NCBI RefSeq assembly: GCF_900113875.1
Contig: NZ_FORA01000002.1
Location: forward strand, 310,001 to 374,000
Source: Jannaschia pohangensis
GTDB lineage: Bacteria; Pseudomonadota; Alphaproteobacteria; Rhodobacterales; Rhodobacteraceae
Direction of reading: 5' to 3'
Length of the DNA stretch: 64,000 nt
Both the position numbers and the translations under genes were made by a program. Under the pieces are notes generated by a model. The model saw nothing but the letters and a program-made list of their open reading frames with translations, searched no databases and had not been told where the DNA came from. Below are positions 50,697 through 64,000 of the stretch, piece after piece; the stretch's first letter is position 1; each line of letters starts with the position of its first letter.

Positions 50697-50770
50697 TGAA
50701 CTTTATCTAGTCGCATGACTTGAACAATCAAACCCCGCTGCTATCTGGCCACCAGACGCGAAGGAAGACG

Positions 50771-53008
50771 ATGGCACAGACCGAACAGACAGGACGTTTT
50801 CTCGGGGGCCCCGCCGGATGGGTTTCTGTGGCCGTGCCTGCCGCGTTGTTCGTCTGGTTCCTGCAATTCCTGCCCCAGATCGGCGCGGGCGAGGTCGTTC
50901 GCCTCAGCATCGACTGGGTTCCGTCGCTTGGCGTCTCGATCGGGCTGCTGATCGACGGGTTGTCGCTGTCGTTCGCGCTGCTGATCACCGGGATCGGCGC
51001 GCTCGTCACGCTCTATTCGACGTCATACCTTGGTGGCCACGTCCACTACAGCCGGTTCGTGATCTTCCTTCTGGCTTTCATGACCGGAATGCTGGGCCTT
51101 GTCCTGTCCGACAACCTGCTGGCGCTGTTCGTCTTCTGGGAAGTGACGACGATCTCCTCCTACCTGCTGATCGGGTTCGATGCCGATGCCGCCAAGGCCC
51201 GGCGCAATGCGCTTCAGGCGCTTCTGGTGACGGGCACGGGCGGGCTCGCCTTCCTGGCCGGGATCGTCCTGATCGGGGTCGCGGCGGGCACCTTCGATCT
51301 GTCGCAGATCGAGGGCACGCTGACCGAGCATCCGCTCTATCTGCCGATCTTCCTGCTGGTTGTTGCCGCCGCCTTCACCAAATCGGCGCAGGTGCCGCTG
51401 CACTTCTGGCTGCCCAACGCAATGGCCGCGCCGACGCCGGTATCGGCCTATCTGCACTCGGCCACCATGGTGAAGGGCGGCGTCTATCTGCTGGCGCGGA
51501 TGAACCCGACGCTTGGGGGCACCGACATCTGGTTCTGGACGCTGGTGATCTTTGGCGGCGTGACGGCGGTTTTCGCCAGCATCCTCGCCATCCGCCAGAC
51601 CGACATAAAGCAGGTCCTGGCCTATACGACGCTCATGGCGCTCGGCACGCTGGTGATGTTCATCGGGGTCGGCACGGACAAGGCCATCGAGGCGGCGATG
51701 ACCTTCCTTCTGGTCCACAGCTTCTACAAGGCGTCGCTGTTCCTGATGATCGGCGTGGTCGATCACGGCACCGGAACGCGCGAGTCCACGGTGCTGCGCG
51801 GCCTCTGGCGCGCGATGCCGGTGACGGCGCTGGCGGCAATGCTGGCCGCGCTCAGCATGGCGGGCGTGCCGCCGCTCTTCGGCTTTGTCGGCAAGGAATT
51901 CCTCTACAAGGCGTCACTCGATGCCCCGGCCTGGCTTTGGGTCACCTGCGCGATCTTCGCCGCTTCGGCGTTGATGTTCGCGGCGGGGGGCATCGTCGCC
52001 TGGCGTCCCTTCGTGGGCGAGCTGGCCGAGACGCCCGTCAAGCCGCATGAGGGGCCGTTGCCCATGCTGGTCGGCCCGTTGCTTCTCGCGGTCTTGGGCC
52101 TGGGGGCGGGGCTTTTCCCGGATTACGCGGAATGGCTGGTGCGCCCGGCCGCCGCCGCCGTTGCGGGTGCGCCGGTCGAGGTCGACCTCTATCTCTTCAA
52201 AGAGGTGAACTCCGCCTTCCTGCTGTCGATGGTGACCTTCGCGACGGGCTTCGTCCTCTACCTGCTGCACCCCCGCCTGCGCGACGGTCTCGCGCGCTTC
52301 AAGCCGCGGTTCGACCCCGGGTGGGACAGGGTGATGGACGGCGTGGCCGCCGGTGCCGCCGGGCTGACCGGGGTGATCCAGACGGGCCAGCTGCGCCGCT
52401 ACGTGTTCATCACCTTCGCGACCCTCGCCATCCTGGTTGCCATCTCGGTGGTGCGCGGCCGGATCGACACGCCTCTGGCCAGTTTCGAGGATCTGCGGAT
52501 CAAGCATTGGGCCGTCCTCCTCTTCATCATGGCGGGCGCGCTGCTGACGGCCTTCACCAATTCGCGCATGACGGCGGTCGCGGCCCTTGGAACGGTCGGA
52601 ATCGGCGTGGCGCTGGTGTTCATCATGTTCGGCGCGCCTGACGTGGCCATCACCCAGCTTCTGGTCGAGGTGCTTCAGGTCGTGCTGGTCGCGGTCGTCA
52701 TGCTGAAGCTGCCCCATCTGAACCCGGAATCAATCAGCCGCGTGCGGCCCTGGGATCTGGCCCTGGCGCTCAGCATCGGCGCGCTCACCACACTCGTGCT
52801 GCTGGCGGTGATGGCGGCCCCCCTCGACCTGCGCCTGACCGCGTTCTTCGAGGCGACCTCGGCCCCAATCGCCTATGGCCGCAACATCGTGAACGTGATC
52901 CTCGTCGATTTCCGCGCCCTCGATACCTTCGGGGAAATCGCGGTCGTCGCCGTCGCGGCCCTGGGCGCCTTCGCGCTGCTGCGCGGCACCAGGCGGCCCA
53001 GCCCATGA
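50771..53008 (+). CDS. mrpA: Mrp cation/proton antiporter subunit A
   Basis: MrpA is the large antiporter subunit related to complex I NuoL. The 745-residue protein has about 18-20 membrane segments: the NuoL-like core with [32 protein letters not shown] and [13 protein letters not shown], followed by a C-terminal part ([35 protein letters not shown]) that corresponds to the MrpA tail/MbhD-E region. ATG 50771 is preceded by AAGGAAG. It starts a seven-gene operon that exports Na+ (or K+) in exchange for protons and is divergent from the OxyR-like regulator. Confidence 0.94.
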
Positions 53009-53021
53009 CGGAGGCGCACCA

Positions 53022-53444
53022 ATGACAACCTCCCTCATCGTGCGGGCGGCGACCCGGATCCTCGTGGGTCTGCTTCTGGTCTTCTCGATCTACATGCTGC
53101 TGCGCGGCCACAATGAACCGGGCGGCGGTTTCATCGGCGGGCTGATCGGGGCGACCGGCTTCATCCTCTATGCCATCGCTCATGGCTGCCGCGCCGCGCG
53201 CGAAGCACTGCGCCTGGAGCCGCAGACCATCGCGGTGGCGGGGCTGGGCATCGCGCTGGTCTCGGGTCTGGCGGGTGCGATCCCCGGCGATGCCATCTTC
53301 ACCGGCCAATGGCTGTTCCTTGGTGCGACCGAGACGGACAAGGGCTGGCCCCTGTCGACCATCCTCGTGTTCGATATCGGCGTCTACCTGGTCGTTCTGG
53401 GCGCAGTCCTGACCCTCGTCTTTGCGCTGGAGGAGGAAGTCTGA
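53022..53444 (+). CDS. mrpB: Mrp antiporter subunit B
   Basis: A 140-residue protein with four hydrophobic segments and the MrpB signature [24 protein letters not shown]. It is an essential partner of MrpA/C/D in the hetero-oligomeric antiporter. GGAGG lies eight bases upstream of the ATG. The TGA overlaps the mrpC ATG by one base. Confidence 0.94.
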
Positions 53445-53803
53445 TGGAAACCCTTGTCGCCCTCATGGTCGGAGCCTTGGTCGCCGCCGCCGTCTATCTG
53501 ATGCTGGCCCGCAATGTGCTGCGCTTTCTGTTCGGCCTGATCCTGATTTCCAACGCCGCGAACCTGCTGATTTTTGCCTCGGGTGGGCTGACGCCGGATT
53601 CGCCGCCGCTCATCGACGAGGGCGCGATTGCCCCGGCCGCGGGCGCGGCCAATGCGTTGCCCCAAGCGCTGGTCCTGACGGCCATCGTGATCGGCTTCGG
53701 CCTGTTCGCCTTCGCGCTGGTCCTCGTCTACCGCGCCTATCAGACGATGGGCACGCTCAATTCCGACGACATGCGCCTGGCCGAGCCGGAGGAGCGGTCT
53801 TGA
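53444..53803 (+). CDS. mrpC: Mrp antiporter subunit C (NuoK-like)
   Basis: A 119-residue protein with three membrane segments homologous to NuoK of complex I. It has LRFLFGLILISNAANLLIF and PLPQALVLTAIVIGFG-like NALPQALVLTAIVIGFG, the conserved NuoK/MrpC elements. It starts inside the mrpB stop and ends inside the mrpD start, with a charged tail DDMRLAEPEERS. Confidence 0.95.
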   Translation: METLVALMVGALVAAAVYLMLARNVLRFLFGLILISNAANLLIFASGGLTPDSPPLIDEGAIAPAAGAANALPQALVLTAIVIGFGLFAFALVLVYRAYQTMGTLNSDDMRLAEPEERS

Positions 53804-55299
53804 CCCTTCTGCTGCCGCTTCCCATCGTCATCGCCTTTGCCACCGCGATCCTCGCCTTCTTCTTCCGCAACGGATCGGAGGGGCGCTGGATCTCGGTCAT
53901 CGGCTCGGCCCTGATGCTGGTGACCGGCTGCATCCTGCTGTCGGAGGTCATGGCCAACGGCCCGCAGGCCGCGCAGATGGGCAATTGGCCCGCCCCCTTC
54001 GGCATCACGTTGGTGGCCGATACGCTTTCGGCGGTGATGGTCGTCATCACCGGCATCACGGCGCTGGCGGTCAGCGTCTATGCCACGGCGGACGTGACCC
54101 GGGACATGGAGCAGCAGGGCTATCACGCCCTCTTCCAGGTCCTGATCGCGGGCGTGACCGGTGCCTTCCTGACCGGCGACCTCTTCAACCTCTACGTCTG
54201 GTTCGAGGTGATGCTCATCTCCTCCTTCGGCCTGCTCGTCATGGGCGGCAAGCGGGTGCAGATGGATGCGGGAATCAAATACGTCACCCTCAACCTGATC
54301 TCCACGATCCTGTTCCTGTCGGGCATCGGGCTGCTTTACGGGGTGACCGGAACGCTGAACCTGGCCGACCTGCACCATGCGGTAAAGCTGGCCGACCCCG
54401 GTCTGGTGACGGTGATCGCGACGATGTTCCTCGTGGGCTTCGGCATCAAATCGGCGGTCTTCCCGCTCTTCTTCTGGCTGCCCGCCTCGTATCACACCCC
54501 GTCCTTCGCGGTCTCGGCGGTCTTCGCGGGCCTGCTCACCAAGGTGGGCGTCTATGCGATGATCCGCATGTTCACGCTGGTCTTCACGCAAGACATCGCC
54601 TGGACACACGGCCTCCTCCTCTGGATCGCCTGCCTGACCATGGTGACGGGCGTTCTGGGCGCGGCGGCGCAGACCGACTTCCGCCGCGTCCTGTCGTTCC
54701 ACATCGTCAGCCAGATCGGCTACATGATCCTGGGCCTTGCCCTGCTGACGCCGCTGGCGCTGATGGGGGCGGTCTTCTACCTGGTCCACCACATCATCGT
54801 GAAGGCGAACCTCTTTCTGGTGGCGGGCGTGGCCAACCGCATCGCGGGCGGCACGGAAATCGACCGCATCGGCGGCCTCTACAAGGGCGCGCCCTTCCTC
54901 GCCTTCCTGTTCCTGATCCCGGCGTTCTCGCTGGCGGGCTTTCCGCCCCTGTCGGGCTTCTGGGCGAAGTACGTGCTGGTGAAAGCCTCGATGGATCTCG
55001 AGCTCTGGATCGTGGCGGCAACGGCGCTGGCCGTGGGCCTGATGACGATCTATTCGATGACCAAGATCTGGGGCCGCGCCTTCTGGAAGCCGCATCCCGC
55101 CGGCACCGTCCCGACCCTGTCCAGCCTCTCGCTCGGAACCCGCATGGCCATGTTGCTGCCGATTTCGGGGCTGGCTCTGCTCACCGTGCTGATCGGCCTC
55201 TTCCCCGAGACCTTCGTGCAACTGGCCACGACCGCCGCCGAAGAATTGCTCGACCCGACCGCCTACCTTGCCGCCGTCCTGGGGGAGGAGCCCGCATGA
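53800..55299 (+). CDS. mrpD: Mrp antiporter subunit D (NuoN/M-like)
   Basis: MrpD is the second proton-channel-like subunit. The 499-residue protein has about 14 membrane segments with YVWFEVMLISSFGLLVMGG, SAVFPLFFWLPASYHTPSFA and HIVSQIGYMILGLAL, the antiporter-like motifs with channel Lys/Glu/His. The start is TTG at 53800, giving MTLLLPLPIVIAFATAIL and a TTGA overlap with mrpC; the next ATG would remove the first membrane segment. The stop overlaps mrpE by ATGA. Confidence 0.94.
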   Translation: MTLLLPLPIVIAFATAILAFFFRNGSEGRWISVIGSALMLVTGCILLSEVMANGPQAAQMGNWPAPFGITLVADTLSAVMVVITGITALAVSVYATADVTRDMEQQGYHALFQVLIAGVTGAFLTGDLFNLYVWFEVMLISSFGLLVMGGKRVQMDAGIKYVTLNLISTILFLSGIGLLYGVTGTLNLADLHHAVKLADPGLVTVIATMFLVGFGIKSAVFPLFFWLPASYHTPSFAVSAVFAGLLTKVGVYAMIRMFTLVFTQDIAWTHGLLLWIACLTMVTGVLGAAAQTDFRRVLSFHIVSQIGYMILGLALLTPLALMGAVFYLVHHIIVKANLFLVAGVANRIAGGTEIDRIGGLYKGAPFLAFLFLIPAFSLAGFPPLSGFWAKYVLVKASMDLELWIVAATALAVGLMTIYSMTKIWGRAFWKPHPAGTVPTLSSLSLGTRMAMLLPISGLALLTVLIGLFPETFVQLATTAAEELLDPTAYLAAVLGEEPA

Positions 55300-55775
55300 A
55301 CCTGTTCCTGCTGAACATCCTGCTCGCCGTGTCCTGGGCGGGCCTGACCGGCGAATTCAACCTACTGGGCCTTGGCATCGGGTTCGTGGTGGGCTTTCTC
55401 GCCCTCTGGATGGTGCAACCGCTGTTCGAAAACCGGGGCGGCAGTTATTTCCTGCGCGTCTTCCGGGTACTCAAGCTGATCGTGCTGTTTCACTGGGAGC
55501 TCATTATCTCCTCTGTCTCGGTCGCCTGGGATGTGCTGACCCCCCGCCACCGGGCGCGTCCCGGCATCATCTGCGTGCCGCTCAAGGCCAAGGGCGAAGC
55601 GGAGGTGCTGCTCGTCACAAACCTCATCTCGCTGACCCCGGGCACCCTGTCGCTGGACGTGACCGAGGATTGCAACACACTGGTCATCCACGCCATGTTT
55701 GCCGATGACCCCGAGGCCATCGCGGCCCAGATCGAGAACGGCATGGAGAAATGGGTGCGGGAGGCGCTGGCATGA
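55296..55775 (+). CDS. mrpE: Mrp antiporter subunit E
   Basis: A 159-residue protein with two N-terminal membrane segments and a cytosolic part. It shows the MrpE pattern VFRVLKLIVLFHWELIISSV and LLVTNLISLTPGTLSLDV. MrpE contributes to complex assembly. Both ends overlap neighbours by ATGA. Confidence 0.94.
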   Translation: MNLFLLNILLAVSWAGLTGEFNLLGLGIGFVVGFLALWMVQPLFENRGGSYFLRVFRVLKLIVLFHWELIISSVSVAWDVLTPRHRARPGIICVPLKAKGEAEVLLVTNLISLTPGTLSLDVTEDCNTLVIHAMFADDPEAIAAQIENGMEKWVREALA

Positions 55776-56116
55776 TGTCCCCGTCCCTCACCGACCAGAT
55801 GCCGATCCTGTCCGTCTGCGTCCAGATTGCCTTTGGCATGGTCATGGTCGGCGTCATCCTGGCCATGTTCCGCCTGATCAAGGGGCCCAGCCTGCCCGAC
55901 CGGGTCGTCGCGCTGGACACGATGACCGTCCTCATCGTCAGCTTCTGCGGCCTCTTCGCGCTGGATACCGGATCGACGGCCTATCTCGACGTGGCGGTCG
56001 TGCTGGCCCTGATCGGGTTTCTGGCCACGGTCGCCTTGGCCCGCTTCGTGGAGCGCAAGGCGCGACGCCCCGAGGCGGATCACCTGAACACCGCAGGGGA
56101 CGACCATGATACTTGA
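55772..56116 (+). CDS. mrpF: Mrp antiporter subunit F
   Basis: A 114-residue protein with three membrane segments and the MrpF motif RLIKGPSLPDRVVALDTMTV. The ATG at 55772 overlaps the mrpE stop. The C-terminal tail overlaps the start of mrpG by 11 nt. Confidence 0.94.
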   Translation: MMSPSLTDQMPILSVCVQIAFGMVMVGVILAMFRLIKGPSLPDRVVALDTMTVLIVSFCGLFALDTGSTAYLDVAVVLALIGFLATVALARFVERKARRPEADHLNTAGDDHDT

Positions 56117-56468
56117 GATCTTCCTGTCGGCCTGCGTCCTTCTGGGCGGCTTCTTCGCCTTCATCGCGGGCCTTGGCATCCTGCGCCTGCCGGACGTTCT
56201 GATCCGGATGCACGCGACGACCAAGGCGGGGACACTGGCCAGCGGCCTCATCATCCTTGCGGTGGCGATCGGCTTTGCCGATGCCTCGACAGTCGCGCGG
56301 TCGGTAGCGATCATGCTGTTCCTGCTGCTGACCGCCCCCGTCGCCGCGCATATGATCGGCCGCGCCGCCTTCCGCTCGGGCGTCCCGCTCTGGAAGCCCA
56401 CCAAGATCGACCCCGAGGCACGGATCAAGCTGGGCGTGCGGGACGTCGACACGCCACCGCGAGACTGA
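56106..56468 (+). CDS. mrpG: Mrp antiporter subunit G
   Basis: A 120-residue protein with three membrane segments and the MrpG signature LGILRLPDVLIRMHATTKAGTL, then TAPVAAHMIGRAAF. It closes the complete mrpABCDEFG set. It converges on the DUF1523 gene with an 11-nt gap, so transcription of the two operons must end in very little space. Confidence 0.95.
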   Translation: MILEIFLSACVLLGGFFAFIAGLGILRLPDVLIRMHATTKAGTLASGLIILAVAIGFADASTVARSVAIMLFLLLTAPVAAHMIGRAAFRSGVPLWKPTKIDPEARIKLGVRDVDTPPRD

Positions 56469-56479
56469 CCCTCCGGGCG

Positions 56480-57130
56480 TCAAACCCGCGGCTTGCCCTT
56501 CCAGGTGTCGAGCCACGCGCGGAAACCCTTGCGACGTTCGTTCACGCTGTCCACGGCATCGTCCCATTGCTCGTCCGCAGCCTCCAGCAGGGGGTCGATG
56601 CGATTGCGGCGAAAGCGGATGATCCGCACGGTGATCGCCCAGAGGATCGCGGCCAGGATCGTCAGGAAGACGATGTTGAACCAGGGGATGACCGTGACAT
56701 CCGGCCCCTCGACCGGGCGCACGCCGACGGCGTTCGGAAAGATCGTCAGGAATTCAGACCGCCAACCATAATGCGTCAGCGCGACCCACTGCGGCGCGGC
56801 GGCCGTCGAGGTAAGGTCACGCGCCTCTGCCTGAAGGTTCGAGGAATCGAGCTTGAAGTACGGCGGCCAGCCCCAGCCCGTATCCTCGTTGCGATAGACG
56901 GAGGGGCGGCCATTGGGTTTCACCGTCTCGATGAAGCGCACGTCACGGGTCGCCCCGGCCACGGTGCCCACATCCGGCGAGGCCCAGAAGATCGAGTTCT
57001 CGCCAAAATCGATGCGCCGGTTTTCCGACCCCACGATGCGGACGATATCCGTCTGCGGCAGAGTGTAATGCAGGAACCCGCCGAAGAACGTCACGACGAC
57101 AAGCAGCAGGATCCATTTCACATAAGTCAT
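56480..57130 (-). CDS. DUF1523 family membrane protein
   Basis: A 216-residue protein with an N-terminal membrane segment (WILLLVVVTFFGGFLHYTL), a ~110-residue extracytoplasmic domain rich in W and Y (GWGWPPYFKLDSS, HYGWRSEFLTIFPNAV), a second membrane segment (WFNIVFLTILAAILWAITV) and a basic cytosolic tail. This layout and the P-Q-T-D-I-V-R-I-V-G start match DUF1523, of unknown function. It is the last gene of the eleven-gene AAA+ cluster. Confidence 0.85.
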   Translation of the reverse strand: MTYVKWILLLVVVTFFGGFLHYTLPQTDIVRIVGSENRRIDFGENSIFWASPDVGTVAGATRDVRFIETVKPNGRPSVYRNEDTGWGWPPYFKLDSSNLQAEARDLTSTAAAPQWVALTHYGWRSEFLTIFPNAVGVRPVEGPDVTVIPWFNIVFLTILAAILWAITVRIIRFRRNRIDPLLEAADEQWDDAVDSVNERRKGFRAWLDTWKGKPRV

Positions 57131-57143
57131 CGGCAGCGCCCCC

Positions 57144-57410
57144 TCAGGCGTAGTTCACGAGATACACCAGAAGACATATGAGCGTGATCGGCACGACATA
57201 CACCCCCCAGAGCAATTTGCGGCGCAGACTGCGTTTGTATTCCGCCATCCCGATATCCACGAAGGTGTGGCGCGGCAGCGGGGGTTTCTCGGTCTCCCAC
57301 TCGGCCTCCAGGCGGTCGCGTTCGCCCGCGCGAAACCAGAACACCATGCACCAATAGACGACCGTCAGGACGACCAGCAAGACCACGACAAGTCTCAGCA
57401 ATCCGAGCAT
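57144..57410 (-). CDS. Small unknown membrane protein (AAA+ cluster)
   Basis: An 88-residue protein with two hydrophobic segments (LLRLVVVLLVVLTVVYWCMV and LLWGVYVVPITLICLLVYLV) separated by a charged cytosolic loop (RAGERDRLEAEWETEKPPLP ... YKRSLRRK). No family is recognised. It lies 1 nt after the DUF6638-like stop and 13 nt before DUF1523, so it is almost certainly in one transcript with them. Confidence 0.75.
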   Translation of the reverse strand: MLGLLRLVVVLLVVLTVVYWCMVFWFRAGERDRLEAEWETEKPPLPRHTFVDIGMAEYKRSLRRKLLWGVYVVPITLICLLVYLVNYA

Positions 57411-57411
57411 A

Positions 57412-58716
57412 TCACCCCCAGGGCCCCTTGACCCGTTTCTGCACCTTCGGGACCGGATGCGTCACGTCGGAGGCATACAGATGCGCCCAAACCCCGTCCC
57501 GGTCGGCAGCATAGTCGGTTGCCAGCCTTTCCGCGACCCAGGTCTTCAACGTGTCGGGGCTGGCCGCGTAACGCGCATAGAACAGCGGCTTGTGGCAGAT
57601 GTGGAGCTGGCGGAAATCCTGCGGGGCAAGTTCCGCCAGAAGCATGTTGGTCAGGTCGCGCAACGGTCCGGGCGCGGCCCGCAGGGTGTGGAAATAGGCC
57701 GGGTTCGCGCTGTCGATCCGGGGCCAGGCGCCCCGCCCCTCGGCCCAGGCCAGCATCGCCCCCAGGGCATGCACCTCCGGCGGCAGGACCGCGGCATGAA
57801 CCTGCATCGCCCGCCTGAGCGCCCGGTCGGACACTGCATCCGGCAGGTGCCCCGCGTGACCCAGCGCATCGATGGCCAGATGCTCCAGCTTTTCGCGCAG
57901 GATGTCGGCCGCCGCCACACCCCGTCCCTCGACGATGGGCTGCACCAGGTTGTTCATCTGCAGGAAGGTCGCCACGACGTTGCGCATCGACAGGTCGATC
58001 ACCTCGATCCCCGGCGCGGGGAACGGGCGATTGGCCAGAACGGCCTTCGACCCGACCGACCGGAAGACATAGACCCCGCCATGGTGCGCGGTCCAGAAAT
58101 CGTCCTGCTGGAACGACGCCGTCTCGAAGGTCACGGGCGCGCGGGTCACGTCGCCGGTCGCCTGCGCCAGCCCGATCATCTTCGACACCAGCACATCGTC
58201 CCACCAGGCGTCCTCTTCCTCGCGGAAGCGGCGGATCAGGGTGTCGAGCTTCGCCGCATCCCGCACCACGCCAGTCGTCGTATCCGCCTCGACCGTGACG
58301 GTCCGGATATCGAGCAAATGCGCCGGATCCGCGACCGAATAGACCGAATTCTGAAGCTCTCCGGCGACGGCATCCCGTGCGGTCAGCGTGAAAAGCTGCG
58401 CCTCGTTGCGGGCGATGAAATCGCGGATGATCTGTGCCGACGTCGAGAATTTCATCTCGAGCAGCGGGGCCTCCCGCTGACGGGTCGACAGCAGGATGAT
58501 CTGCCGATTGCAGCCACCGGGATTGAGGTAGTCCATATCGTCCAGCTCATCCCCCACCTCGGGGGAAAAGCCGCTCAGGTCGATGTGGAAATGATCCAGC
58601 GTGGTCCGCTTGCCCGTCAGATGCTCCAGCGCCCGGTTGTACCGCTCGATAAGCGCCGGTGAAGCGACTTCGAACAGACCGCCGAACATCAGGCCGTGTT
58701 GGATGAGGCGTTTCAT
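57412..58716 (-). CDS. DUF6638-like cytosolic protein (AAA+ cluster)
   Basis: A 434-residue soluble protein beginning MKRLIQHGLMFGGLFEVASP. It has DFHIDLSGFSPEVGDELDD and YLNPGGCNRQIILLST near the N-terminus and DDFWTAHHGGVYVFRS in the middle. These resemble proteins annotated DUF6638 in Rhodobacterales, from memory. There is no known catalytic motif; the region 'ARNEAQLFTLTARDAVAGEL' is strongly helical. Its ATG overlaps the stop of a 44-residue secreted peptide gene. It may be the soluble partner of the ATPase. Confidence 0.75.
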   Translation of the reverse strand: MKRLIQHGLMFGGLFEVASPALIERYNRALEHLTGKRTTLDHFHIDLSGFSPEVGDELDDMDYLNPGGCNRQIILLSTRQREAPLLEMKFSTSAQIIRDFIARNEAQLFTLTARDAVAGELQNSVYSVADPAHLLDIRTVTVEADTTTGVVRDAAKLDTLIRRFREEEDAWWDDVLVSKMIGLAQATGDVTRAPVTFETASFQQDDFWTAHHGGVYVFRSVGSKAVLANRPFPAPGIEVIDLSMRNVVATFLQMNNLVQPIVEGRGVAAADILREKLEHLAIDALGHAGHLPDAVSDRALRRAMQVHAAVLPPEVHALGAMLAWAEGRGAWPRIDSANPAYFHTLRAAPGPLRDLTNMLLAELAPQDFRQLHICHKPLFYARYAASPDTLKTWVAERLATDYAADRDGVWAHLYASDVTHPVPKVQKRVKGPWG

Positions 58717-58847
58717 GCGCCCGCTCCCATCACGAGGCATGAGGGCCCGATGATCGGCACACCCATCATCGCCGCGTCACCCGGATTCACCGCCTGACCC
58801 AGCGCGAAGCTGGCCAACAAGCACCCGATCAGGAACGTCCTGAGCAT
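58713..58847 (-). CDS. Small secreted peptide, 44 residues (AAA+ cluster)
   Basis: The frame encodes MLRTFLIGCLLASFALGQAV followed by NPGDAAMMGVPIIGPSCLVM and GAGA. It looks like a signal or lipoprotein-type leader (hydrophobic core, C at residue 9) with a tiny mature part. Strong support comes from AAGGGGG five bases before the ATG and from the ATGA overlap with the next gene. It is below usual gene-calling length. Confidence 0.6.
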   Translation of the reverse strand: MLRTFLIGCLLASFALGQAVNPGDAAMMGVPIIGPSCLVMGAGA

Positions 58848-58887
58848 GTCGTCCCCCTTCGCATCAAGTGCTGGCGTCCCAAATCCA

Positions 58888-59301
58888 TCACGCGACCCCC
58901 CATCGCCGCCACAGCGTCGCGCCGAAGGCCCCTGTGGCCAGCACCGTCGTCACCGCACTCCCCAAGAGGGTAGCCCCGAAGTTCTTCAGCGCTTCCCCCG
59001 CCTGCGCCAGAACCGGTAGGATGAACAGCGGTGCTGCCAAGGGGCCCAGGTTTTCCGCCGTTAGCGCCATATCCTCTTCGACCGGATTGGCGACGGCCAG
59101 CACGTTTTCCAACGCCACAAGAGCAAAGAACCCGACCACAGGGATCAGCGCACAGCCCGCCACCAGCCGGATCCACGCGCGGTGGCGCGAGATCCATCGC
59201 CCCAGCAGAACTGCCGCGATCACGGGAAATCCGACCACCGAGATCAGCAAGTAGCCATGCGACAGCAGCGCGTTCCACAAGATGGCAAGGTCACGCATCA
59301 T
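58888..59301 (-). CDS. Unknown multi-pass membrane protein (AAA+ cluster)
   Basis: A 137-residue protein starting MMRDLAILWNALLSHGYLLI with four hydrophobic segments: LLISVVGFPVIAAVLLG, LVAGCALIPVVGFFALVAL, APLFILPVLAQAG and LGSAVTTVLATGAFGATLW. Nothing identifies its function. Start MM at 59301 overlaps the previous gene by 11 nt; a longer frame to 59334 adds Cys/Arg-rich residues unlike a real N-terminus. Confidence 0.75.
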   Translation of the reverse strand: MMRDLAILWNALLSHGYLLISVVGFPVIAAVLLGRWISRHRAWIRLVAGCALIPVVGFFALVALENVLAVANPVEEDMALTAENLGPLAAPLFILPVLAQAGEALKNFGATLLGSAVTTVLATGAFGATLWRRWGVA

Positions 59302-59665
59302 TCGCGGACACCTCCTGCTTGCGCAACATGCCACCCACGGCCGCGCCGATCACAGCAAAAAGCGTCACGGCCAGCGCCCCCAGAACCGAGGCGATGACCA
59401 TGAAGACCATATCGAACAGGTCCAGCGCCACGACGGCCGGCAAGGCATAGCCAAGCGCCGGCTCTTGCTCCAGGGCCGTGAAGGTGTCGACCGGATCGGC
59501 AAAATGGCGGCGTAACATGATCCAGCTTACCACCACTCCCAGGGGAAACCCGAACAGCAGCGCCAGTGTCTTCGGCCCAAGGTTCGCCGCCCCCGGAGGC
59601 CGCGTGTCGAACCGCGCGCAGGCCCCGGCCGCGACGGCGACAACGGCGCAGAAGAGGCCAAACAT
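59291..59665 (-). CDS. Unknown multi-pass membrane protein (AAA+ cluster)
   Basis: A 124-residue protein starting MFGLFCAVVAVAAGACARFD with three hydrophobic segments (N-terminal, TLALLFGFPLGVVVSWIML, and MVFMVIASVLGALAVTLFAV) and a short charged tail KQEVSAND. The ATG overlaps the TGA of the gene before it by one base (TGATG). No family is recognised. It and its two neighbours are similar in size and may form a small membrane complex. Confidence 0.75.
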   Translation of the reverse strand: MFGLFCAVVAVAAGACARFDTRPPGAANLGPKTLALLFGFPLGVVVSWIMLRRHFADPVDTFTALEQEPALGYALPAVVALDLFDMVFMVIASVLGALAVTLFAVIGAAVGGMLRKQEVSANDA

Positions 59666-59976
59666 CACCACACCGCCTCCTTCCAGCCGCGCGGCAGGTT
59701 GGCGACCGACAGGATCATGACCGGCGCCCAGATCAGCGCGGCCTTGGTGGACAGCAACAGGAAATGCCACGGCGCAGCACTCAGGATCACATCGCCTGCG
59801 TCCCCGTAGAGCACATAGAACCCGCCCGCCGCGATCAGCGCCAGAAGGCAGGCCGACAAAAGCGCGATGACGAAGAGCCAGCCGACCCCCTCGGGCAGCA
59901 GCTTCGACAAAAGCCACGGCACGACCCAGGCCGCCAGCCCGAGCAGCACGAGAGGAAGGGCGACATCCGTCAGCAT
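59665..59976 (-). CDS. Unknown three-pass membrane protein (AAA+ cluster)
   Basis: A 103-residue protein starting MLTDVALPLVLLGLAAWVVP. Three or four hydrophobic segments are visible: the N-terminal one, GWLFVIALLSACLLALIAA and LLLSTKAALIWAPVMILSV. It starts five nt after the AAA+ ATPase stop. No function is recognised; position suggests it is a membrane partner of the ATPase. Confidence 0.75.
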   Translation of the reverse strand: MLTDVALPLVLLGLAAWVVPWLLSKLLPEGVGWLFVIALLSACLLALIAAGGFYVLYGDAGDVILSAAPWHFLLLSTKAALIWAPVMILSVANLPRGWKEAVW

Positions 59977-59981
59977 CCGCC

Positions 59982-61898
59982 TCAGCCCTTCCCTGCCAGA
60001 TAGCGGCGCTTGGCCTCTTCCATCCGGCCCATGTCGCGCACGGCGTTGTCGATGGCGACCTCGTCGGACTTGTCGGCATAGCGGAATTCGCTGTCGGCGT
60101 AGCGGTTCACCTCCTGCAGGACCATCTCGGTCGTGATCGGCACCCGCATCTCGTTCACCATGCCCATCTTGTCGTCATAGGCCTTGTGCATGAAGGCCTC
60201 GGGCGTCTCGAACCATTCGTCGGGCAGCTCCACATCCATCGCCCGCACCTTCACGGCGTCGGTGATATTCTTGATGGCGCGCCCGGTGAACCGCTCGTCC
60301 GCCATATGGATGCCCTTCAAATAGGTGCCGATCTTGGCGATCGTGTCCAACTCCCCGATCCGGCCGCGCACATCGTCGAAAACCTGCGCCAGCTTCTGTT
60401 CCGCCGGGCGGGAATGCTTGGCGAAACTCTCGGCCACGGCGCGGGTCAACTCCTGAGCGGCATAAAGCTCGTGCTCGCCCATCGGAATGTCATGCCGCTT
60501 GCCCAGCAGAAGGGCGAGGATGTCGATGTAGTCTTCCCGCGTCTGCGGCCCGTCCACCAGGAACCGCGCGCCCGCCCGCTGGCGCAGGGCGTCGTCCACA
60601 TTCTCCGGATAGTTCGAGAACATGCCGAAGGTGCAATTGCCCCGCACGACCGTATTGGCCCCCGCGAAACTCTCCATCAACACGGCGGTGATCTCCAGCT
60701 GGCCCGCCGAGGCCTGCCGGTCGCCGCGCTTGCCCGCCAGCTGGTCGATGTCGTCGATGGTGCCGAAGCCGATGACATTGGGGTCCAGCACGCCGTTGAT
60801 GAAGGCCTTGGCATTCTGCGCCGACTTGCCCTGATAGCTGTCGATACTGTCGGTCGACAGGTTCTCATAGCGGAAGGGATAGCCCGCCACCTCGCAATAG
60901 CCGTGGATCAGACCGGCCATCATCTGGATCAGGGTCGTCTTGCCCGTGCCCGGCGCACCGTCGCCCATGAAGGTGAAGATGAAGCCGCCAAGATCGGCAA
61001 AGGGGTTCAGCTTGCGCTCGAAATCATAGGCCATCAGCATCTTGGACAGCTTGAGCGCCTGATGCTTGGCGATATGGTTCCCCACCACCTCATGCGGTTT
61101 CTTGAACTGCATCACCAGCGGTTTGCCCGCCGCCCGCAAGGCCGGTGCAAATCCGTTCAGCGTCAGGTCATCCGCCTCGATCCGGTAGCTGGCCGCCCCG
61201 AAAATCGCGCCCCGCGCCGCGTGCTGCGCGCGGTCGGCCAGACGCGCCAGCAGCGCCTCGCATTGCGCGGCAAGCGTCGCGACCATCTGGTCGTCGTCCA
61301 GCCCGTCCAGCCGCTGGTCGATCTCCCACAGCAGACCTTCGAGCATCGCCTGCGCGTTGTCGGTCAGCACCTCTTCGGGCGAGGCGACCTCGGTCGATGT
61401 CGTGCCCCGCAGCGGCGCGATCAGGAAGGCCAGCGCGTTGGCGAAGACATGGCCCACGGCCAGCGCCTCGGCCTCCAGCAGCTCGGTGAACTTGGCGCGG
61501 TCCCCCTCTGGCAGACGCCCGGCCAGGTTCGCGGCCTTGAGCGCATCCAGACCCGACCGGTCCTCCAGCGCCCCGCCGATGGCCAGCGCAATCGCCAACG
61601 CGCGGAGCATCCCCTGCAAGACCTGCGCGCGGGCGGGCGTCACCAGCCCCTCACCCTCGATGGTGTCGCGCAGGTGGACGGCCCCCGCGGGCGTGGTCCG
61701 CCGCGTTACCAATCCCGGCGTCGTCGACCGGAACCGCGACCGCGTGCCGATGCCGGGTGACCGCTCCGGGGCGGTCCGCTCGCTCGCCTTGCCCAGGCGG
61801 GGCGCATGATCGAAGCCCGACAAAAGCGCCAGCGCCGCGTCATAGCGGGCCGTGATCTCGGCTTCGGTCAATTCCATCGCGTCCGCAGACATGCTCAT
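59982..61898 (-). CDS. AAA+ ATPase with N-terminal helical domain, core of the right-end cluster
   Basis: A 638-residue cytosolic protein. Residues 1-290 are helical with no known domain (Ala/Leu/Glu-rich). The AAA+ module follows: Walker A GDGAPGTGKTTL (312-323), Walker B-like IGFGTIDDIDQLAG (376-389), sensor-1 region FGMFSNYPENVDDA with N429, and candidate arginine fingers R439/R441 in ALRQRAGARF. The C-terminal part RAIKNITDAVKVRAMDV is the lid helix. The DDID instead of DExx may bind Mg-ATP as in other AAA+ branches. AAGGAA precedes the ATG. It is the only ATPase among eleven linked genes and presumably powers them. Confidence 0.85.
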   Translation of the reverse strand: MSMSADAMELTEAEITARYDAALALLSGFDHAPRLGKASERTAPERSPGIGTRSRFRSTTPGLVTRRTTPAGAVHLRDTIEGEGLVTPARAQVLQGMLRALAIALAIGGALEDRSGLDALKAANLAGRLPEGDRAKFTELLEAEALAVGHVFANALAFLIAPLRGTTSTEVASPEEVLTDNAQAMLEGLLWEIDQRLDGLDDDQMVATLAAQCEALLARLADRAQHAARGAIFGAASYRIEADDLTLNGFAPALRAAGKPLVMQFKKPHEVVGNHIAKHQALKLSKMLMAYDFERKLNPFADLGGFIFTFMGDGAPGTGKTTLIQMMAGLIHGYCEVAGYPFRYENLSTDSIDSYQGKSAQNAKAFINGVLDPNVIGFGTIDDIDQLAGKRGDRQASAGQLEITAVLMESFAGANTVVRGNCTFGMFSNYPENVDDALRQRAGARFLVDGPQTREDYIDILALLLGKRHDIPMGEHELYAAQELTRAVAESFAKHSRPAEQKLAQVFDDVRGRIGELDTIAKIGTYLKGIHMADERFTGRAIKNITDAVKVRAMDVELPDEWFETPEAFMHKAYDDKMGMVNEMRVPITTEMVLQEVNRYADSEFRYADKSDEVAIDNAVRDMGRMEEAKRRYLAGKG

Positions 61899-61916
61899 CT
61901 CGTCGTTCCTTCCAAT

Positions 61917-63032
61917 TCACCCGACCCGCCACAGCCGACCGTCACCCACCACATATTTCACGACACCGGCGAACCCCGGCGGGGACGTCTCGGCCAACGC
62001 CTGAAAGACCGGTTCGGGCAGGATGGCCGCACGCTCGGTCCGGGTCGCACCACTGTCCTGCGCCGCCAGATCCGGCAGCGACCAGACCTGCTTGTCCACC
62101 GACGAAAACCATCCCGCCTTTTGGGACAGGACCCGCTCGGAAACCAAGGTCTCCAGCGTCCAGGCCAGCGCCCAATCCTGCCCGGCGGGCGCGCGCGCCG
62201 CGGCCATCACCTCGCCCAGCCCCTCGGTCTGGAGCGTATAGGCCGAGGAATACATCGGCCCCACCGTCAGCCGGGTCAGGCGCTTGGGGTGAATGTCCTC
62301 GAAATCGTCGTCGAACCCCTTGGCCACGGTCAGCAGTTTCAACTCCGGCAAGGCCTGCGCCATCAGGTGGCCCTGCACCCGCTCCCACCGGGCGAAATCG
62401 GCGGACAGGGGCCTGCGCCCTGCGTCTTCCGCCTCCATGATCCAGATCACCGGCAGGTTGCGCTGACCGTCCCAGGCCGACCAGTCGATCGACACCCGCA
62501 TGGGATCACCTGCCGCACCCCGAAGCTGCGCATCGTTGCGCGGCCAGAACATGTCCCCCTGCAACAGCTCGTCGTGATAAAGCCGCTGCGACATGGCGTA
62601 TTGCAGGTCGGTCGGAATGCGCCGCTCACCCACGATGGCGGCGATCATCGCCTCCTTCAGGGTGTCGGGGTCGGGGATGCGCTGCAGATGGCCAACCGAT
62701 TGCGCGGCGTCCGAGGCCATCGACAACAGCTCCTGCAGGACCGGAAAGCCGCTGGCCGACCGGTCCACGGTCAGGCTGCCCAGAAAGACGCCCGTATCCC
62801 GCCCCGTCATCAGGTACTTGTGGCTCAGCGCGCGGAAGGTGTGGTTCAGGCCCGACAGATGCGCGGCCACCGCGTCCAGCTCCAGACGGGTCAACCGCCC
62901 GCTCTGCTCCATCTCGGCGGCGACGCGCGGCAGGTGGCTCAGGATCGTCTCGAACTTCGCGAAATAGCGCCGTGCCTGACGGTTTTCCTGCAGGACTGCG
63001 TGGTCACGGACAAGGTCTTGCTTGAGCGTCAT
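61917..63032 (-). CDS. Unknown soluble protein upstream of the AAA+ ATPase
   Basis: A 371-residue protein starting MTLKQDLVRDHAVLQENRQA, without signal peptide or membrane segment. The N-terminal ~150 residues are helical; the middle has DWSAWDGQRNLPVIWIMEAE and the second half is mixed alpha/beta. No domain is recognised. The frame is open upstream, but ATG 63032 avoids overlap with the previous gene's body. It ends 18 nt before the ATPase ATG, making it a likely adaptor or substrate-binding partner. Confidence 0.72.
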   Translation of the reverse strand: MTLKQDLVRDHAVLQENRQARRYFAKFETILSHLPRVAAEMEQSGRLTRLELDAVAAHLSGLNHTFRALSHKYLMTGRDTGVFLGSLTVDRSASGFPVLQELLSMASDAAQSVGHLQRIPDPDTLKEAMIAAIVGERRIPTDLQYAMSQRLYHDELLQGDMFWPRNDAQLRGAAGDPMRVSIDWSAWDGQRNLPVIWIMEAEDAGRRPLSADFARWERVQGHLMAQALPELKLLTVAKGFDDDFEDIHPKRLTRLTVGPMYSSAYTLQTEGLGEVMAAARAPAGQDWALAWTLETLVSERVLSQKAGWFSSVDKQVWSLPDLAAQDSGATRTERAAILPEPVFQALAETSPPGFAGVVKYVVGDGRLWRVG

Positions 63033-63036
63033 CGTC

Positions 63037-63534
63037 TCAGAAACTCTGCAATCGCAGAAGGCCGGTGCCGTCCTGCAGGCGGTAAAGGATGATCTGGTCC
63101 CGGCCCGTCGTCTCTTCGGTCCGCCCGGTGACGGCACCATGGGACGCGATGTCGAGATGCCAATATGTCTCGATCAGCCGATCCAGCACGCCCGCTTCAT
63201 GGTCCAGGGTCGGCCCCATCTCGATCGCGCCCATCGCCGCCGCGGGAATCAAGGCCACCGCGCTCAGGTCGCTGTTGAAGGCGGATTTCAACTCGCCGTA
63301 GCCCGCGAATTCCACGCCCGCCAGGGCCCCTCCGAAAACTTCCGCTGCGGCCCGCTCGGTATAGCCGCGATTGGCCTGCGACGCGGGGTCGATGTCCGTT
63401 GCGGACGGGAAGGCGAGGAACAACGGCAGGACCGCCGCAATGATCGCCGACGCCATGGCCCCGAGGACGACAAGAACCCAGACCCACCACCGCTTGTAGA
63501 GCGGCCTGCGGGGTTTAATCACGTCACCGCTCAT
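63037..63534 (-). CDS. Unknown protein with N-terminal membrane anchor (AAA+ cluster)
   Basis: A 165-residue protein: MSGDVIKPRRPLYKRWWVWV, one hydrophobic helix (VLVVLGAMASAIIAAVLPLF), then about 120 extracytoplasmic residues with TERAAAEVFGGALAGVEFAG. Basic residues before the helix predict an N-in, C-out topology. Start 63534 overlaps the stop of the gene before it by ATGA; the following gene starts 4 nt after its stop. Confidence 0.75.
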   Translation of the reverse strand: MSGDVIKPRRPLYKRWWVWVLVVLGAMASAIIAAVLPLFLAFPSATDIDPASQANRGYTERAAAEVFGGALAGVEFAGYGELKSAFNSDLSAVALIPAAAMGAIEMGPTLDHEAGVLDRLIETYWHLDIASHGAVTGRTEETTGRDQIILYRLQDGTGLLRLQSF

Positions 63535-63998
63535 GGCGCGGCCCCGGTCGGCCAAGCAAGCCAGAGCGCGGCGCAAAAGCAAAGACCCGAAAGCCCCGCC
63601 AACCGCAGCCAGAGCCGCCGCGATATCGCGGGCCGGGGGAACAGCGGGGCACCGCGCGGGCGGGTCGCCCAGAGAACCATCGCCTCGGCCCGCGCATCCA
63701 CCGCGTCATGGGCCCGAATACGCCACGCCCGATGCGGGATCGCCGCGGCGCCCAGATGTCCAAAGGCAAAGACCGCCTCGATCACCGGATCCCCGATGGT
63801 CAAGACAAGCCACCAGACCGCCCCGAGGATCAGGCCCAGCAGGATCGGCGCGAACATGGCGAAGCTCAGCCCCTGCATCACCGCCTCGAAGACATCGACC
63901 CGATGCACGCCGATGGCCCAGATCACCCCCATCGCGCTGAAAACCGCCATCGTCGCCAGAATGCCGCGCCCGGTCACGATCGGCGCCCCCTCATCCAC
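63531..63998 (-). CDS. Unknown membrane protein at the window edge (AAA+ cluster, possibly truncated)
   Basis: At least 155 residues with three hydrophobic segments: TMAVFSAMGVIWAIGVH, FAPILLGLILGAVWWLVLTI and LWLRLAGLSGLCFCAALWLAW. The first codon visible in frame is GTG 63998, with an ATG at 63950, and the frame may continue beyond the window, so the true start is not known. It overlaps the following gene by ATGA. No family is recognised. Confidence 0.65.
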   Translation of the reverse strand: MDEGAPIVTGRGILATMAVFSAMGVIWAIGVHRVDVFEAVMQGLSFAMFAPILLGLILGAVWWLVLTIGDPVIEAVFAFGHLGAAAIPHRAWRIRAHDAVDARAEAMVLWATRPRGAPLFPRPAISRRLWLRLAGLSGLCFCAALWLAWPTGAAP

Positions 63999-64000
63999 GA

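Follow-up and report, generated by a model that had tools for sequence, protein, structure and literature searches.

A four-gene AAA+ ATPase core, a membrane pair separable from it and two cassette slots in Jannaschia pohangensis and its relatives

The window analysed here is a stretch of 64,000 nucleotides (nt) from the alphaproteobacterium Jannaschia pohangensis (contig NZ_FORA01000002.1, positions 310,001 to 374,000), the last part of which holds a dense run of genes around an AAA+ ATPase. A sequence-only reading of this run had proposed a single membrane-associated machine of eleven genes. This interpretation should be replaced by a four-gene ATPase core (a predicted all-helical protein termed coil, the soluble protein g3, the AAA+ ATPase and a DUF6638 protein), a separable membrane pair (DUF1523 and g10) and two cassette slots, since the core is co-conserved, DUF1523 is independent and the slot genes are exchanged.

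The gene run and the proteins of the core

The run extends from 63531 down to 56480, and all of its genes lie co-directionally on the minus strand. Their tight packing, as originally described, is borne out by junctions that range from 8-nt overlaps to 18-nt gaps, with the exception of 40 nt between g7 and g8. The guanine-plus-cytosine (GC) content of codon position 3 is 0.79-0.88 for every gene of the run. The predicted operon comprises twelve genes, not eleven; the first gene, coil, is located just beyond the window edge. Coil encodes 356 residues from a GTG start (window-equivalent 64309-65376, i.e., L032:8310-9377), its stop codon ends 10 nt ahead of g1, and a divergent argE gene adjoins it. 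The edge gene g1 (63531..64000, minus strand) is truncated by the window; the full protein comprises 254 residues and starts outside, at L032:8296 or window 64295. Starts shorter than the longest open reading frame were picked from homologues and spacing for DUF6638 (434 residues from 58716), g2 (165 residues) and g7 (136 residues). A scan of the operon for consensus promoters and terminators returned matches no better than chance level.

Within the window, the core is represented by g3 (61917..63032, a soluble protein of 371 residues), the AAA+ ATPase (59982..61898, 638 residues) and the soluble DUF6638 protein (57412..58716), all on the minus strand. The ATPase is a classical AAA protein (PF00004, E-value 3.4e-11, 44.2 bits vs. 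a cut-off of 21.2), and both motifs reported for it are present, namely the Walker A motif GDGAPGTGKTT within residues 312-322 (G312, D313, G314, P316, G317, T318, G319, K320, T321) and the Walker B motif D382-D383-I384-D385 (IDDID). The protein also harbours a pore-loop-like Y355-Q356-G357, the arginine-finger candidates R439, R441 and R445, and a sensor-2-like G539-R540. At least 97% of 114 sequences, those from Vibrio among them, share each of these residues, and the motifs are consistent with a polypeptide-remodelling ring. The Walker B signature DDID (I or V allowed) likewise occurs in at least 97% of the 114 relatives, and the codon for D383 lies at window 60750-60752. Walker B motifs usually have a glutamate where this ATPase has an aspartate, and the aspartate could make hydrolysis slow. 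When checked for Vps4 membership, the N-terminal region of the ATPase matched no Pfam domain, MIT included.

The DUF6638 protein, first described as “DUF6638-like”, is a full member of its family (PF20343, 544.8 bits vs. a cut-off of 27, 2e-163). Beyond the AAA domain of the ATPase, profile searches assigned no function to any core protein, in line with the initial view of an ATPase-driven system whose soluble partners lack an assigned role; a comparison of the core proteins with each other revealed no homology. The predicted fold of g3 is confident (predicted local distance difference test, pLDDT, 87.5) and has no match in PDB or BFVD at E<=0.001; a new fold is not claimed, because the search covered these two collections and not cellular predicted structures. 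A literature search found no mention of DUF6638 or PF20343, whereas DUF1523 is named in four papers and DUF2333 in one; searches on the core, its embedded cargo and hotspots in Rhodobacteraceae listed nothing on this locus. In a simple hydropathy scan, coil, g3 and DUF6638 came out free of membrane segments, and in the ATPase two stretches were flagged, both N-terminal. The notion of a “membrane machine” draws on the variable genes together with DUF1523/g10, a pair that is separable from the core.

Of the core proteins, coil shows the highest conservation (73-92% identity); it is predicted to be all-helical, with hairpin helices at residues 100-187 and 191-276 and a confident middle part (approximately 140-230). 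The model as a whole (pLDDT 58) is too poor to use; with this low-confidence model, Foldseek retrieved varied coiled coils, including Vipp1, none of them at E<=0.001. A conserved helical hairpin is what might be expected of a housekeeping machine for membrane remodelling or quality control, comparable to Vps4 acting on an ESCRT-III/PspA-type polymer. Coil would assemble at the inner membrane, the AAA+ ATPase would disassemble it, DUF1523/g10 or a DUF2333 protein would serve as anchor, and the slots, unrelated to the function, would offer accessory genes a passive safe harbour. This explanation is possible, if somewhat doubtful. Operons combining PspA or Snf7 with an AAA+ ATPase are on record (PMC11237479); against this parallel, coil has no Pfam match to PspA, Snf7 or TelA, a separate PspA is encoded elsewhere in the genome (the only gene there matched by PF04012), and an amphipathic N-terminal helix of coil is not evident by eye.

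For 20 coil members, neither PspA nor Snf7 was among the 25 Pfam families listed (15 more were unlisted), and both are absent from the full Pfam table of the window's own coil. TelA (PF05816), another candidate identity for coil, was rejected, as it scored an hhalign probability below 1% in three runs and was not among the same 25 listed families (15 more unlisted) at E<=1. TelA proper is found in 40 of 41 genomes and is located on another contig in the source genome.

Co-inheritance of the core and the separable membrane pair

In the main sample, 121 genomes of one family, the ATPase, coil, DUF6638 and g3 are each present in 70 genomes. These are the same 70 (lists compared by eye), and not one genome holds a partial set; the core is thus inherited all-or-none. 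Strand and order are kept in 20/20 fetched genomes and in all 76 named loci that comprise the four genes. Among 80 named loci, coil is missing in three and DUF6638 in two, and the three coil misses as well as one DUF6638 miss coincide with contig ends. Outside the family the order coil-g3-AAA-DUF6638 recurs in 12/12 loci, which stem from Sinorhizobium, Shinella, Vibrio (two records, nearly identical) and eight further genomes; in those that were compared with the J. marina proteins, the ATPases are 38-65% and the DUF6638 proteins 24-49% identical. The ATPase was found in 7 of 385 genomes of a class-wide sample (two outside the family), and DUF6638 in 26 of 398 genomes of a phylum-wide sample (12 outside the family). 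Closer to the source, the ATPase is 88% identical to its J. helgolandensis counterpart. For the conserved genes of the run, nonsynonymous differences (pN) are far below synonymous ones (pS). Together with the presence of the core in 70 of the 121 genomes, this makes the run more than a chance assembly.

The distribution is patchy at the same time. Nine genera mix core-bearing and core-less genomes, and the genus labelled g1 in the sample comprises two of each. For a housekeeping machine it would be odd to be missing from 51 of the 121 genomes and to vary within nine genera, and this counts against membrane remodelling as the basic function.

DUF1523 (56480..57130, minus strand, 216 residues) and g10 (57144..57410, minus strand, 88 residues), each with two transmembrane segments, constitute a membrane pair separate from the core. 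The family assignment of DUF1523 was correct, and the protein is a full member (PF07509, 238.8 bits vs. a cut-off of 23, 3.2e-71). DUF1523 is present in 117 of the 121 genomes, and the four genomes that lack it lack the core too. Sixteen DUF1523 loci away from the core cluster were retrieved, two of them second copies and 14 from core-less genomes; g10 was detected alongside in 12 and g5 in 4. Next to the core the spacing is narrow, with junctions of -4 to 15 nt between DUF6638 and g10 and of 7 to 14 nt between g10 and DUF1523, and no insert in 80 loci each. In all six Rhizobiaceae-type loci, from two named Rhizobiaceae and from four further genomes that share one family, DUF6638 is followed by a DUF2333 membrane protein in place of DUF1523/g10, and in Vibrio the next gene after the core is mfd. 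The core-less DUF1523/g10 loci, the DUF2333 proteins and the Vibrio arrangement demonstrate that the membrane partner is exchangeable and separable. A lineage-dependent neighbour of this kind (DUF1523, DUF2333 or none) would also suit a remodelling machine with varying anchors.

On the far side of the pair, window 50720-56468 carries plus-strand genes that by eye resemble those of a multisubunit Na+/H+ antiporter and converge on DUF1523. The last antiporter-like gene lies near the cluster in 4 of the 80 named loci, namely the four Jannaschia relatives.

For the other genes of the run, tblastn against the 80 named loci detected g1 in one locus, g5 in 13, and g2, g6, g7 and g8 in none. Co-conservation, the test set for the eleven-gene proposal, thus holds for g3, the ATPase and DUF6638, and also for coil, and fails for g1, g2 and g5-g8; DUF1523 is near-universal independently of the cluster. 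A single eleven-gene membrane machine could appeal to tight spacing and common direction, but six of its eleven members are not conserved, DUF1523 is independent and close relatives swap the slot genes, which leaves this explanation hardly credible.

Two hypervariable slots and their cargo

The variable genes occupy two positions, slot 1 between coil and g3 and slot 3 between the ATPase and DUF6638. In the window, slot 1 contains g1 (five predicted transmembrane segments) and g2 (63037..63534, one N-terminal transmembrane segment). Slot 3 contains g5 (59665..59976, 103 residues), g6 (59291..59668, 125 residues, four predicted transmembrane segments), g7 (58888..59298, two predicted transmembrane segments) and, at its end, g8 (58713..58847), all on the minus strand. 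The small membrane protein g5 is semi-conserved and also found in some core-less genomes. A secreted peptide of 44 residues had been proposed for g8; the codon composition weakly supports this possible peptide, and no relative was found in the 80 named loci.

In total, 159 slot genes were called in 86 of 98 distinct loci and fall into 91 BLAST clusters, 68 of which are singletons; 8 of the 159 sit between g3 and the ATPase. Two locus pairs (L033/L106 and L035/L115) each represent one genome, which does not affect the slot-gene counts. The turnover is apparent in 18 Ruegeria loci (153 pairs), where the ATPase and DUF6638 align over their full length with a median identity of 88.6% and 85.4%, respectively, while the aligned part of slot 3 stays below 20% in 147 of these pairs, as does that of slot 1 in 128 of 136. 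For the 1.2 kilobases (kb) downstream of DUF1523 the aligned part reaches 20% or more in every pair (median 94%), and for the 1.2 kb upstream of coil it falls short of 20% in 85 pairs. Even among the closest 26 of 200 non-independent pairs with at least 90% ATPase protein identity (96.6-98.3% in these 26), the aligned part of slot 3 is below 20% in 23. In addition, some pairs have slot 1 in common and slot 3 unshared or partly shared (L134/L166; L122/L132), and therefore, the two slots swap independently.

The slots also differ in composition, with a GC content of 0.48-0.49 vs. 0.57 for the core in 16 Ruegeria loci, where the slots include non-coding DNA. The end of a neighbouring core gene is copied inside the slot in 3 of 149 slots by DNA comparison (L123, L129, L136), and a further copy was seen by protein comparison in L144, which fits recombination. 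Slot 3 of L123 (L123:10929-11999) contains a duplicate of the ATPase gene's 3' end (132 nt, 92%), as if recombination had joined two cassettes.

Part of the cargo belongs to recognizable families. Above the respective cut-offs are Mrr_cat (1.2e-32) in slot 3 of L161, DUF559 (8.5e-35) in L181, found by BLAST and in the scan of the 91 cluster representatives, and in L191 of S. meliloti, as well as putAbiC (1.6e-17) on a cluster representative that was not traced to a locus; one AbiP match by PADLOC likewise fell on such a representative. DUF559 occupies slot 3 in five of the six Rhizobiaceae-type loci. In S. meliloti (L191:10986-12731) the interval from the ATPase to the DUF6638 gene contains an IS4-type transposase in addition to the DUF559 endonuclease gene. 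The statement that the set lacks a nuclease thus stands for this window and not for some relatives, whose same slot holds nucleases. Below cut-off are matches to HATPase (1.4e-4; L049, L116), AbiJ_NTD4 (5.3e-7; L040, with a relative in L158) and DUF4145 (8e-4; L036 and three relatives). Three cargo families keep the sequence R-x(4-6)-H, which we take to be the HEPN motif, in every aligned row (4/4, 2/2 and 8/8, two of the eight rows being from the same genome). The largest of them is without Pfam support, and its HEPN label is tentative. Cargo pairs show pN of 0.22-0.34 vs. pS of 0.80-0.89, which marks the genes as real and constrained.

One of the R-x(4-6)-H families was matched in six of 244 genomes, five times in slot 3, and the sixth match, located elsewhere, is weak and contains stops. 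A hotspot inside an operon, with a cargo family intact only there among 244 genomes, calls for a reason, which counts against a passive harbour in a remodelling operon. In L231, L236 and L237, copies of a HEPN-motif family are found outside the slot, near a gene that by eye is ABC-F-like, and in L231 and L236 also near a NadD-like gene (by eye); this site is possibly a second hotspot.

Hypervariable cassettes at fixed positions between conserved flanks, along with a possible secreted peptide and numerous membrane proteins of small size, are also reminiscent of a polymorphic locus for competition or kin recognition, at which toxin/immunity-like cassette pairs would be exported or displayed via the core and diversified by selection among neighbouring strains. 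No secretion, adhesin or polymorphic-toxin trafficking family was found among the profile matches of the core and the scanned cargo, however, and the nuclease-type cargo lacks an export signal by eye, so that we consider this explanation improbable.

Interpretation and comparison with known systems

We tentatively favour, at slightly less than an even chance, a four-gene ATPase core that serves exchangeable effector cassettes, probably in anti-phage or envelope-stress immunity. This is the best single reading, with a remodelling machine situated in a cargo hotspot close behind. In the immune interpretation, the AAA+ proteins would assemble into a ring, presumably a hexamer, that remodels or threads the helical protein inherited along with it. 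Coil is the proposed substrate in view of its co-inheritance, its conservation and its predicted helical hairpin. The proteins g3 and DUF6638 may act as adaptors, and the membrane pair (in Rhizobiaceae, DUF2333) would provide a tether at the inner membrane. The effectors would be the cassettes in the slots (small membrane, HEPN-motif and nuclease-type proteins), which the machine either restrains or delivers upon sensing phage or envelope damage, comparable to abortive infection. Control of the cassettes by the machine is what we mainly infer.

Several findings weigh against an immune function. The strongest counter-argument is that cargo is found without core and core without cargo. A core-less Jannaschia (L052:9048-10334, minus strand) retains argE followed by g5, an Mrr gene that is interrupted as assembled, g10 and DUF1523; cargo can therefore exist without the core. 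Conversely, the Vibrio core carries no cargo, a point that would suit membrane remodelling, and among 96 distinct loci, 11 have a slot 3 shorter than 150 nt. The core itself is incomplete in L118, which possesses coil, g3 and the ATPase and lacks DUF6638 within 9 kb. In this Roseovarius locus (L118:10932-19932), the sole DUF6638 miss away from a contig end among the 80 named loci, unrelated genes lie downstream where DUF6638 is expected.

The cargo is likewise ambiguous. Predicted membrane proteins by simple hydropathy make up 66 of 100 slot-3 genes and 49 of 51 slot-1 genes, and this membrane cargo is mostly small and without family. Few of the 91 cluster representatives match defence or nuclease models, a proportion for which no comparison with ordinary flanking genes was made. 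The R-x(4-6)-H motif alone is weak, because it was picked up in the HATPase family as well. Another HEPN-motif family resides in the slot in just 5 of the 10 genomes matched (244 searched), and the slot counts of both query families are biased, because these were picked from the slot.

Moreover, no PADLOC model names any core protein: in PADLOC 2.0, the window core and four Vibrio core proteins matched no named system component, and the best matches were generic AAA proteins (TRIP13, 2.9e-5; IetA, 5e-4), along with weak matches such as LmuB for coil (0.003). Core inheritance looks mostly vertical, since distances of the ATPase correlate with those of TelA (r=0.58, p=0.0001; Mantel test, 9 genomes, one genome having been dropped for a wrong TelA frame, with which r=0.09 and p=0.18). 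Broadly vertical inheritance is what a remodelling machine would predict. Phage records yielded no match to either the window DUF6638 or the Vibrio ATPase, and all 10 matches in a plasmid collection are on replicons of 0.88-4.6 Mb typed as non-mobilizable.

A bolder version of the immune interpretation, which we regard as rather unlikely, would make the locus a previously undescribed immune platform of Alpha- and Gammaproteobacteria, an AAA+ chassis running interchangeable effectors such as HEPN RNases, Mrr/DUF559 nucleases and membrane proteins. Recombination would plug cassettes into the two fixed slots and thereby re-arm one sensor/ATPase core strain by strain.

The four core families, three of which lack a known activity, form one all-or-none unit from Rhodobacteraceae to Rhizobiaceae and Vibrio. 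Cassette turnover beside 97%-identical flanking proteins usually signals strong conflict, whether the opponent is a phage or a competitor. Should the core control the cargo, the locus would represent a modular immune chassis with an effector pool readable from genomes; if not, it is still a precise gene-exchange hotspot within a conserved operon.

Among described systems, the neighbourhoods of PspA/Snf7 with Vps4-type AAA+ ATPases resemble the locus in placing a classical AAA+ ATPase next to an all-helical protein and membrane proteins (PMC11237479). They differ from it in that coil has no Pfam match and the ATPase N-terminus no Pfam domain, MIT included. Coil shares with TelA (PF05816) its solubility, all-helical prediction and similar length, whereas three tests revealed no profile similarity. 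The cargo of some relatives recalls AbiJ/HEPN abortive infection proteins by sub-threshold AbiJ_NTD4/DUF4145 matches and R-x(4-6)-H, but here AbiJ/HEPN-type proteins are cargo rather than core, and none occurs in this window. Finally, candidate defence genes embedded in Hma and BREX/DISARM loci are variable and reside at fixed positions inside a conserved operon. The operon described here differs from those hosts in being devoid of a helicase or methylase, in yielding nothing beyond generic AAA matches in PADLOC 2.0 and in harbouring many cassettes of small membrane proteins, and it shares with them the nesting of variable defence-type genes in a conserved operon.

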